DNA of 64,000 nt, taken from assembly GCA_015709675.1 (NCBI GenBank), contig CP054182.1, positions 3,079,448 through 3,143,447 on the forward strand, written 5' to 3'. Source of the DNA: Ignavibacteriales bacterium. GTDB lineage: Bacteria; Bacteroidota; Ignavibacteria; Ignavibacteriales; Ignavibacteriaceae. Shown piece after piece: positions 39,329 through 43,222 of this stretch. The position numbers were made by a program, and so were the translations under genes. Position 1 is the stretch's first letter. The number at the start of each line of letters is the position of its first letter. The notes under the pieces are model-generated. The model saw only the letters and a list, made by a program, of their open reading frames with translations. It ran no database searches and was not told the DNA's origin.

Positions 39329-39338
39329 GAAATATATC

Positions 39339-41066
39339 TTACTTCAACAAAACCGATTTTATCTGTTTTGTACCAATCTTAGTTTGCAGTCGCACAATAT
39401 AAATACCGGATGATAGGTTCGTACCAGATTCATCCTTTCCGTTCCAGTTAAATCTTTCCCGATTTCCGGTACTGATTCCTTCTGCTAAAGTAATAATCTG
39501 CCTGCCCATTATGTCATAAATAACCACTTCAAACCCTTCATGATGTGGTACCGTTACCTCGTAGGTTTGAGTTGCATTGAATGGGTTAGGGTAAGCTGTA
39601 ATTGAAAAATCATCAGGAGAGATTATTTCATCTTCTAAACTTGTACCAATTGTTGGTTTATAAATTTTCGAAAACTCTCTCACCTGGAATGAATTAAAAT
39701 TATGTGTAATATAGTCCTGAGATATAATCACTTCCATATTTCCGTCACCGTCAATATCATACATGGTTCCGCCAAAGTATTCACTGCTGACGCCAGAGGG
39801 TACTTTATCTCTAAATTTAACATAATAGAGAGCATAATTGTGTTCATTTGGAAATCCGCGGAAGGTTAATATAAAAAACACATTGTCCAGACAGACAATA
39901 AGTTCTTCTACACCGTCACCGTTAATATCCTTTGCAAGCATATTATAGGCAGCAAACGAGAAGATCCCTGGTATTTCAATTCTTGCAACCTGCTGATACT
40001 GATTGTCTCCTGTTGCTTCAAATGCAGTGAAGCGCGTAATACCAACTCCGTTCCGGAAGGCATCTCCGCCGACCCAAAACTCCTTCCTTCCATTACCGTC
40101 TATATCATTACTTGCGGCATGCATATAGGGATTTGAATGTCCAACAGTACCCGTCCATGAATTCGTGTAGGTACCGAGTACTGGTGAATATTCAAGTATC
40201 TGGATTTTACCCTTCACATTACCCAATACTATATCAGCATATCCGTCACCATCAATGTCTTCTGCTGAAAATCCTGCGGAATATACATCCTCCTGTCTGA
40301 ATTCATAAACACTGTCAAAACCATTTTGCTGAGAATTAACAGTCTTAATAAAGTTTCTACCGGGTGATGCAAGTGAATAATAAACCAAATCAGTATTATC
40401 ATCAAGATTGAAATCCCCAAAAGTCGGATCATTCATTTGATACCCCATATCGTTTAGCATCATTTCATTAACGGGGAAGGATGTATCACTTGGCGCATTC
40501 ATAACAAAACCATATTTACTGCCTGGAAAAGTCTGAATATATACCTCTAGGTCACCATCATTATCTATATCATACAATGCTTTGGCTCTCAGTAGTGTAT
40601 CCTTATATATATGTCTGATGATATAATTGTCGAGTTGAGAATCATATTCAAATATTTTCACCGGAAAAGGACCATTGGGGGCATCTAAAAAATATAAATC
40701 GCTTCCATAAAATTCCGTTATCCCATTCTTGTTAACATCACCAATCAATACTGGGGCTACAAAACCGCCAGTAGCATTAACCTCCTTCCAAAATGTGTAG
40801 CGATCGTGGTATAAAAGTGTATCTACATTTAGAACATCTATTACAACTGTGTCTATTCCATCAACAGGAAGATTGCCTTGTTCAGGATAAATACCTTTTA
40901 CAATGGATTTACCCCCAGGATATTTTATCAATAGCAAACTGTCCGAATTATTGTATAACTCACTTTCAATGTTTTGCTTTAACAACTCCTGCTTTATTTG
41001 CTTCAAATTCTGACCATGCAGAAATATAATCTGCAAAAACAAAAGGCATAATACAATGTTCTTCAT
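39339..41066 (-). CDS. T9SS-exported FG-GAP/VCBS repeat protein
   Basis: Surface or secreted protein of 575 residues. The signal peptide MKNIVLCLLFLQIIFLHG is followed by repeats holding Ca2+-type loops such as DIDNDGDLE, DIDGDGYAD, DIDGNGRKE, DINGDGVEE and DIDGDGNME, typical of FG-GAP/VCBS propellers. The C-terminal domain begins at YPNPFNATQTYEV and ends QIKSVLLK, a T9SS type A sorting signal. I chose the ATG at 41066 because GGAGA stands five bases upstream. Function is probably adhesion or binding; nothing more can be said. Confidence 0.87.
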   Translation of the reverse strand: MKNIVLCLLFLQIIFLHGQNLKQIKQELLKQNIESELYNNSDSLLLIKYPGGKSIVKGIYPEQGNLPVDGIDTVVIDVLNVDTLLYHDRYTFWKEVNATGGFVAPVLIGDVNKNGITEFYGSDLYFLDAPNGPFPVKIFEYDSQLDNYIIRHIYKDTLLRAKALYDIDNDGDLEVYIQTFPGSKYGFVMNAPSDTSFPVNEMMLNDMGYQMNDPTFGDFNLDDNTDLVYYSLASPGRNFIKTVNSQQNGFDSVYEFRQEDVYSAGFSAEDIDGDGYADIVLGNVKGKIQILEYSPVLGTYTNSWTGTVGHSNPYMHAASNDIDGNGRKEFWVGGDAFRNGVGITRFTAFEATGDNQYQQVARIEIPGIFSFAAYNMLAKDINGDGVEELIVCLDNVFFILTFRGFPNEHNYALYYVKFRDKVPSGVSSEYFGGTMYDIDGDGNMEVIISQDYITHNFNSFQVREFSKIYKPTIGTSLEDEIISPDDFSITAYPNPFNATQTYEVTVPHHEGFEVVIYDIMGRQIITLAEGISTGNRERFNWNGKDESGTNLSSGIYIVRLQTKIGTKQIKSVLLK

Positions 41067-41071
41067 AAGAT

Positions 41072-41076
41072 TCTCC
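41072..41076 (-). promoter_or_regulatory. Ribosome binding site fixing the FG-GAP protein start
   Basis: GGAGA on the minus strand, five bases before the ATG at 41066. The site overlaps an earlier in-frame ATG at 41078, which is therefore the weaker candidate. Confidence 0.65.
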
Positions 41077-41093
41077 ATTTATACAGAATGAAA

Positions 41094-41126
41094 GCTGGTC
41101 ATCATCTGGTTTAGATGATGACCAGC
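41094..41126 (-). terminator. Strong hairpin between two T9SS cargo genes
   Basis: GCTGGTCATCATCT pairs perfectly with AGATGATGACCAGC around a five-base loop, a 14-pair stem. The following bases on the minus strand are TTTCATTCTGT, so the T tract is poor. It may be a terminator, attenuator or mRNA-stabilising element. Confidence 0.6.
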
Positions 41127-41143
41127 AGGAACACTTTTACAGA

Positions 41144-42841
41144 TTATTTTAATAAAGCTAATTTAATACTTCGAACAGTTTTGGCCGTTATCAACCGGCA
41201 AACATACATCCCGCTTGGTAAGTTTTGTCCATCAAGCACTTTTGTATGCATTCCTTTTGTAAGCGGCTGATTAATCAATATTGCCACCTCGCTACCATTC
41301 ATGTCAAATATCCTCAAATCTACAAATTGTTCACTTTCTAAAGCAAAAGAAATCTTTGTGGTCGGGTTAAATGGATTTGGATAATTTGCAAATACTGAAT
41401 AATCTAATTCTTCCATCTCTTCGTTGCCAGAGAATTCCTTACTAAGCTCACCCCCAACAACATAACAACTTGCCGTGCCTGAAAATTCAGATTCATTGTC
41501 GTTCAAATCTATTGCCTTTAATTTGTATTGAATCTGTGTACCAGCAGGATCCCCGGCTTGTCTCAAATTCAGCGTATTATCTACATAGTATAGATTTGTA
41601 GTAGTTGCTAAGTAAGCCCATGAAGCAGTACCATATTTTCTATATACTTTATAGCCGTTTATATCAGCTTCATTATTCCTGCTCCATTCCAGCCGCGGAT
41701 GTCCTGTTTGGTTCACCTGTGCAAGGTTCTGTGGTGCTAAAGGAGCAGCATCATTTTGCTTAAATTTAAGGTAATTATCAATCCCATATTTCCATACACA
41801 ATAAATGTCATTCGAGACAGATGTCATATCTGAAATACTTATCGAACTGCCTTGCTCGATCTCAGTTACACTGCTCCAGGAAATATTGTTATGTGTTCTA
41901 AATTCAAGATGATTGCCTACATACAGGATATGTGAGTACCCATTCGATGTTGTGACAAACGAAACTGGAGCCATTACATTGGTTGCTTGGAAAAGTTGTT
42001 CGGCTGATGACCAGGTTGTGCTGCCAACTGCCCGCATTTTTACATTGAGATTATTATAAAACAATCCCATCCCACCAACAAACTCATAGTAAAAATTAAA
42101 TAAGTTTCCATTACCTACCCCAATTCTTTCTAACGAAGATGCAGGTGATGGTCCAAAAACTACCTGAGAATTTCCCCAGGTTGACTGATACTTATCTCTT
42201 ACTCTTGCAGTTCCCTGATTACCAGGATTTTGATTATAACCGGTATTAAAAGAAACATGGACTCTGTCCTGAGAAACTGTTACGCTGGCATACCCGCCCA
42301 CAACGCTATATTCATCTGTAACTTCTTTATAATCCAACCACTCATTACTTGGCGCTAGTCTGTAATAATAAGATTCATAGTTATATCCATTATTTTGAAG
42401 TGAATAGACAAGGTGAACTGAATTATTATCATAGACAGCATCCAAGCTATTGCAGGTATTTGTTGAAATGTCAATTTCACTAATGTTCGTCCAATTACTC
42501 CCTGCATTTGTTGAATATTTTCCCTTTATATAGCCACCATCACGATATATGATGTAAACCTTATCGTTTGAACCTGTTATTGAAGGGAAATTACCCGAAG
42601 AAGAAATTGTGGCTGATGAAACAACTGACCCGGAAGTATTAAGCCGGTAATACTTAATTGAGCCGTTTTGCCCCTCTCTAAGTGCTAAGTGAATCCCATC
42701 CCTATTGGCAAATTGGTCTAATTTGTCAAGGTAGGGCTCATTAATGGAAGTCGTAACTACAGACTGCCACTGTTGTGCCCAAACGAGGGGGGGGGGGGCG
42801 ATTAAAAAGAAAGCGAGAAATAGGAAAAATTTGGTTTTCAT
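41144..42841 (-). CDS. T9SS-exported FnIII protein with poly-C tract in its signal peptide
   Basis: Secreted protein of 565 residues. The signal peptide is about 1-22 and contains the run APPP encoded by a tract of 12 C. A large beta-rich region of Ser, Asn and Tyr follows (sialidase-like or propeller strands, family not recognised), then one fibronectin type III-like domain (about 365-460) and the T9SS type A sorting domain from YPNPFNPTTKISF to SIKLALLK. Start at 42841; the upstream TTG at 42874 overlaps a -7 promoter element and is rejected. One base more or less in the tract would shift the frame and stop translation within about 20 codons. Confidence 0.85.
   Translation of the reverse strand: MKTKFFLFLAFFLIAPPPLVWAQQWQSVVTTSINEPYLDKLDQFANRDGIHLALREGQNGSIKYYRLNTSGSVVSSATISSSGNFPSITGSNDKVYIIYRDGGYIKGKYSTNAGSNWTNISEIDISTNTCNSLDAVYDNNSVHLVYSLQNNGYNYESYYYRLAPSNEWLDYKEVTDEYSVVGGYASVTVSQDRVHVSFNTGYNQNPGNQGTARVRDKYQSTWGNSQVVFGPSPASSLERIGVGNGNLFNFYYEFVGGMGLFYNNLNVKMRAVGSTTWSSAEQLFQATNVMAPVSFVTTSNGYSHILYVGNHLEFRTHNNISWSSVTEIEQGSSISISDMTSVSNDIYCVWKYGIDNYLKFKQNDAAPLAPQNLAQVNQTGHPRLEWSRNNEADINGYKVYRKYGTASWAYLATTTNLYYVDNTLNLRQAGDPAGTQIQYKLKAIDLNDNESEFSGTASCYVVGGELSKEFSGNEEMEELDYSVFANYPNPFNPTTKISFALESEQFVDLRIFDMNGSEVAILINQPLTKGMHTKVLDGQNLPSGMYVCRLITAKTVRSIKLALLK
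42787..42798 (-). repeat. Homopolymer tract of 12 C (coding strand) in a signal peptide
   Basis: Twelve consecutive G on the plus strand, which is C12 in the coding strand of the FnIII cargo gene, codons 15 to 19. It is by far the longest G or C run I saw in the window. Removal of one C leads to TAG and gain of one C to TAA soon after the tract, so length changes would switch the gene off. A sequencing or assembly error in the tract is possible. Confidence 0.9.
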
Positions 42842-42873
42842 ACTAGGACCCTTAAATTGTTTTGAATACGCCA

Positions 42874-42904
42874 CAAACCTAAAAACTCTTTTTTAAAAAG
42901 TCAA
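42874..42904 (-). promoter_or_regulatory. Bacteroidota-type promoter of the FnIII cargo gene
   Basis: On the minus strand TTG (42904-42902), 20 bases, then TAGGTTTG (42881-42874). Transcription would begin near 42867, giving a leader of about 26 bases before the ATG at 42841. Confidence 0.7.
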
Positions 42905-43222
42905 GTGAAAAATTCGGTAAAAATAAAATCAGTTTATTGAGAGCTCAATTCTTCCCAAGTGCAGTGCGCTGAATCTCTGAAAAGCCGTTGTATGATGAAT
43001 CTTAGATAAGAAAAACCATAAAAAAATTTCATCAATTCATTAATGCCGGCAAAACTCAACATTTACTGAAATGTAATATAGATATGCAAATAACCCAGAT
43101 TTAATACTGAATTATTTGCCGGATTGTTTTCCGGCAGTGCAAAACAAAATCACCAACCCGTTTAAGCAGCAAGGTTAAATCTTGCTTACCAGGTATAATT
43201 GCAGGCGGTAAAAATACCTACC
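42905..43222. other. Intergenic region without a recognised gene
   Basis: A+T-rich stretch between the FnIII cargo gene and the anti-sigma gene. It holds a short hairpin TGCCGGA/TCCGGCA at 43117-43136 and an imperfect one (AGCAAG/CTTGCT) at 43168-43186; neither is followed by a T run. I see no open frame with coding character and no RNA gene. Confidence 0.6.

Follow-up and report, generated by a model that had tools for sequence, protein, structure and literature searches.

The window analysed here is a stretch of 64,000 nucleotides from an Ignavibacteriales bacterium, at positions 3,079,448-3,143,447 of a single 4.21-Mb contig. Within it, the gene for a secreted protein carries an uninterrupted run of twelve cytosines in its first codons. 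Random on/off switching of genes is known from Neisseria and other pathogens, and the question raised by this locus is whether the run is such a switch, an accident of sequence, an error of assembly, or a stretch selected for the residues that it encodes. Slipped-strand translational phase variation is the probable answer, judged from the tract itself and from the company it keeps in related genomes.

The C12 tract and its cargo gene

The tract reads as G12 on the plus strand, flanked by aaacga and cga, and as C12 on the minus strand, where it occupies codons 15-19 of an ATG-start open reading frame (ORF). It encodes three prolines in the context MKTKFFLFLAFFLIA-PPP-LVWA|QQWQ, and signal peptidase cleavage is inferred to follow VWA. 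The insertion of PPP/L accounts for the greater length of this signal peptide relative to its homologs (Table 1).

The encoded protein is a T9SS type A cargo protein, as had been proposed from the sequence. It combines an N-terminal signal peptide with a C-terminal sorting domain that scores above the curated cut-offs of both TIGR04183 (37.4 bits, cut-off 23) and Pfam Por_Secre_tail (PF18962; 37.7 bits, cut-off 27). The closest folds to its beta-propeller model are sialidases and PLL lectins, with a TM to target of up to 0.68. The 4.2-Mb genome contains at least 150 T9SS sorting domains.

Table 1. Features of the cargo locus, in window coordinates
Feature	Position	Strand	Remarks
T9SS type A cargo gene	41144..42841	-	565 aa; in frame in this assembly
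Signal peptide MKTKFFLFLAFFLIAPPPLVWA	42776..42841	-	4-5 residues longer than in homologs
C12 homopolymer (G12 on + strand), codons 15-19	42787..42798	-	Proposed slipped-strand switch
Beta-propeller, residues about 24-362	41756..42772	-	Structure model, mean pLDDT 84
Fibronectin type III-like domain, residues about 364-461	41459..41752	-	
T9SS C-terminal sorting domain, residues 487-561	41159..41383	-	
Terminator-like hairpin between both cargo genes	41094..41126	-	14-bp stem; pattern match
Second T9SS cargo gene (FG-GAP repeats)	39339..41078	-	No tract
Segment with both cargo genes	39335..43219	.	Missing in genus-mate G001

Simulated tract lengths fall into two groups. Lengths of 6, 9, 12, and 15 keep the frame and give products of 563-566 residues (564, 565, and 566 for C9, C12, and C15), whereas between 7 and 17 any length that breaks the frame leads to a stop after 26-34 residues. 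C11 yields 27 residues and ends at a TAG 9 codons past the tract, while C13 yields 33 residues and ends at a TAA about 14 codons past it. The original prediction had placed twelve C at codons 15-19 of a secreted-protein gene, with a TAG 9 codons on after loss of one base, a TAA about 15 codons on after gain of one, and product only from frame-preserving lengths; re-reading of the sequence and the simulation (about 14-15 codons for the TAA) bear this out. Two hallmarks of phase-variable genes are present at this locus: a G/C mononucleotide tract of 9 or more, and an early coding position from which both alternative frames end soon.

As a contingency locus, the C12 tract would change length by one C through replication slippage at elevated frequency. 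The full T9SS-exported protein with its beta-propeller, Fn3 domain, and sorting domain would come from lengths of 6, 9, 12, and 15, and other lengths would give a peptide of 26-34 residues consisting mostly of signal peptide. In-frame changes of three C would do nothing more than add or remove one proline in the c-region of the signal peptide. Given this division between frame-keeping and frame-breaking lengths, cells of one clone would switch a surface or secreted cargo protein on and off at random. Length variation at the window tract, its rate, the surface location of the product, and any adaptive value are presumed from this architecture.

The switch would probably affect the first cargo gene only, since a predicted terminator hairpin separates it from the second. 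Both genes lie on a segment that is missing in G001, the only genus-mate available for comparison. There, genes for an M28-type peptidase and an anti-sigma factor adjoin directly (L419 7565-7812). Because the cargo pair is absent from between flanking genes that otherwise adjoin, it is, on this comparison, an accessory island that was either gained in the window lineage or lost in G001. The nuoD of the window shares 93% identity with its counterpart in an Ignavibacteriaceae MAG; of the other 80 loci listed, nearly all come from MAGs of Ignavibacteria or Bacteroidota.

Rarity and origin of the tract

The C12 tract is the only C or G run of at least 8 in the window, where all five C8 matches fall inside it, and the earlier observation that the window holds no comparable run stands. 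It is also the longest C/G run of the single-contig genome of 4.21 Mb, in which the second longest is 9. Runs of at least 8 number 26 genome-wide: most are of 8, about seven are of 9, none is of 10-11, and one is of 12. The run-length decay of 0.18 per base, obtained from 1003 C6 and 37 C8 overlapping matches, extrapolates to 0.03-0.05 expected runs of 12 or more in the genome. The run is thus unusual, and the number alone stays compatible with a single rare accident.

A genome scan for G/C runs at gene starts, suggested with the original prediction, returned this one C12 and one weaker G9; the scan found no run of 10-11. The G9 (G000:C1:1700218-1700226; L017, L311) lies in frame just past the lipobox region of a very long lipoprotein gene, around codon 29. 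It could be a further contingency locus in the same genome, though it is a weaker candidate than the C12. Loss of mismatch repair, which would make the cell a general hypermutator, was considered and is rejected: MutS and MutL are intact in the window genome.

Homologs of the window gene with 28-42% identity have ordinary signal peptides that lack both tract and PPP. Mixed proline codons in relatives had been named with the original prediction as evidence against it; since the homologs have no PPP at all, they speak neither for nor against the prediction on this point. A search of genome contigs with the cargo protein found no close relative. With the tract missing from homologs and the gene missing from G001, the tract is not conserved at the window locus; conservation in orthologs is common for phase-variable genes and is not required. 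The lack of PPP in the homologs' signal peptides points to an origin in the window lineage by insertion, and on this reading the tract is a lineage-specific insertion into the signal peptide.

The lack of tract and PPP in homologs also suits the strongest rival explanation, in which proline codons near the signal-peptide end have expanded by accident and only for a time. Such a run would slip like any C12 without selected switching, and a solitary run expected 0.03-0.05 times per genome is conceivable as a rare accident. This explanation is unlikely, though it is the alternative that deserves the most weight, and the related genomes bear on it from both sides.

Tracts at gene starts and in promoter spacers of relatives

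All tracts of C10 or longer in 146 relatives were listed, and 111 of these tracts were read; a second scan, through some 390 genomes of the class, looked for ATGAAR with C9 or G9 following within 12-42 nt. Across the Ignavibacteria, exported proteins repeatedly have C/G tracts of 9-16 in their first codons. Nine T9SS cargo genes above the TIGR04183 cut-off, the window gene included, carry a tract at this position. In about two thirds of cases, the gene-start tract as assembled breaks the reading frame, and the remaining ORF is intact.

Among these cargo genes, the C11 of G034 is out of frame and interrupts MKKISLFILLTVIIT/YAQPGK ahead of an intact T9SS ORF of 1358 codons, and G237 has an in-frame C10 at a comparable site in an M6 protease with a T9SS tail. 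Tracts in T9SS cargo genes of G142 (C11) and G387 (C10) are in frame, and that of G147 (G13) is out of frame. Out-of-frame tracts with an intact ORF behind also occur in exported proteins or lipoproteins of G192, G318 (a subtilase), G415, G217, and G190, and likewise in G168, G233, G360, G223, G095, G103, and G106.

Two comparisons weigh most. G174 and G206 belong to different genera, and their M6-like proteases are 56% identical; each has an out-of-frame poly-G tract at the same codon 12 (G11 in the T9SS cargo gene of G174, G12 in the exported protein of G206). G078 carries two T9SS paralogs, 40% identical, with a G11 that is out of frame and a G9 that is in frame at codons 12-13; the tract position is common to both while length and frame state differ. 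Tract position is thus kept between homologs at other loci of the clade, which speaks against accidental expansion, as does the recurrence of similar sites in unrelated exported proteins.

Two relatives show further arrangements. In G012, a DNA-methyltransferase-like gene (L253) has a C10 at about codon 33 that coincides with a PPP motif (FTPPPIARF), and on these sequence grounds the gene is a candidate for phase variation. In G045, a near-identical leader of about 120 bp with C12 or C14 precedes ORFs that differ (27% identical; L169, L264), an arrangement reminiscent of cassette exchange downstream of a shared poly-C leader.

A second class of tract lies in promoters. TTGAC occurs 2-8 nt upstream of 9 of 99 tracts, against 0.66 expected, and a direct search for TTGAC followed by a tract found about 15 loci in eight genomes, compared with about 4 for a reversed control pattern. 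The promoters take the form TTGACATTTA-C10-ATTATATTTTATAAT and similar, with C9 to C13 following TTGACATTTA. Spacer tracts between TTGACA and a -10-like element are, as far as promoters can be read from sequence, the architecture of transcriptional phase variation. They also count against accidental expansion, since they argue for clade-wide use of such tracts. At the start of the window gene no promoter-spacer tract was seen, and TTGAC-C9 was not found in the window genome.

The gene classes downstream of the promoter tracts were read from sequence and not by family search. T9SS cargo genes (G075, G080) and lipoproteins (G053, G080) are among them. In three genomes of one genus (G031, G048, G099), C10-12 tracts occupy promoter spacers before LuxR-type response regulators (L314, L315, L316, L317), and phase variation of these regulators is possible. 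In G075 and G448, promoters with TTGACA and C10 to C13 precede ABC exporters (L318, L319, L328), some of which have an N-terminal region that resembles a double-glycine peptidase by eye. Peptide export in these two genomes is possibly phase-variable.

The statistics of the relatives are mixed. When tracts were collected regardless of start codons, 8 of the 27 in coding sequence had a plausible start no more than 42 codons away, where 12% would be expected (p=0.012). Five of these 8 break the reading frame, compared with 2 of the 19 internal tracts (p=0.011), and 5 of the 8 are in predicted exported proteins, against a background of 31% (p=0.07), a weak enrichment. An expected enrichment of signal peptides in the ATGAAR-anchored sets is rejected: the proportion is 17/27 against a background of 66%, because ORFs starting with MK in those loci are already signal-peptide-like to that extent. 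Accidental expansion gains from one further count, as most long tracts in the relatives belong to the 'other' class, which is mostly intergenic. Out-of-frame tracts in MAGs may also include homopolymer or assembly errors.

An error of this kind at the window locus itself, where a sequencing or consensus artefact would conceal a shorter or interrupted run, is improbable. The genome is one contig of 4.2 Mb from what is probably an uncultured organism and may therefore have been assembled from long reads, which do not give homopolymer lengths reliably. Long-read sequencing, however, usually shortens homopolymer runs. A length of exactly 12 preserves the frame, which a wrong length would break two times in three, and similar tracts occur in many relatives with independent assemblies. 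Selection for the PPP stretch itself, as a helix breaker before the cleavage site or as a translational pause, is scarcely credible: the c-region of signal peptides tolerates proline at -5 to -7, but no homolog has PPP, and such selection would not require pure CCC codons with an extra C on either side.

Known systems and the proposed phasome

With these alternatives weighed, slipped-strand phase variation remains the preferred reading of the window tract, and the prediction of a phase-variable C12 is strengthened by N-terminal tracts in both frame states and by promoter-spacer tracts across the class. The mechanism is known from pilC-like and Opa-like genes. In Neisseria, the pilC tract is located in the signal-peptide region, the CTCTT repeats of opa lie in the sequence coding for the signal peptide, and genes of the porA/opc type undergo homopolymer phase variation in the promoter spacer.

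Like pilC, the window gene has a G/C homopolymer near the 5' end of the frame for a secreted and presumably surface-associated protein, with frame-keeping lengths in the ON state. The window protein is unrelated to that of pilC, is predicted to be secreted by the T9SS, and belongs to an environmental Ignavibacteria lineage, and its length variation is inferred. As in opa, a repeat that codes for part of the signal peptide shifts the reading frame; opa, in contrast, uses a pentanucleotide unit and is a multi-gene family, whereas the window tract is a mononucleotide. The porA/opc architecture is matched by the poly-C tracts of relatives between TTGACA and a -10-like element, but not by the window gene. 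Work on the Neisseria phasome uses a threshold of 9 for phase-variable poly-G/C, which the window tract exceeds at 12, and lists pilC as G9-20 and opa among the phase-variable genes (PMC5953494).

Among the open-access papers searched, no report was found that joins phase variation with Ignavibacteria, and 'phase variable' is joined with the type IX system only in a review. Phase variation thus appears unreported there for this host clade and for the T9SS cargo class.

On balance, the evidence leans towards a class-wide phasome in the Ignavibacteria, which are free-living and mostly uncultured. Poly-C/G tracts in signal peptides and promoter spacers would randomly turn on or off the genes for T9SS cargo, secreted proteases, lipoproteins, LuxR-type regulators, and peptide exporters, and the window gene would be a recently recruited member. 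If this is true, an environmental phylum possesses a phase-variable repertoire aimed at T9SS cargo and secreted proteases, which would indicate selection by phage predation, by grazing, or by changing substrates. Genes that look 'broken' in such MAGs may then be merely switched off.
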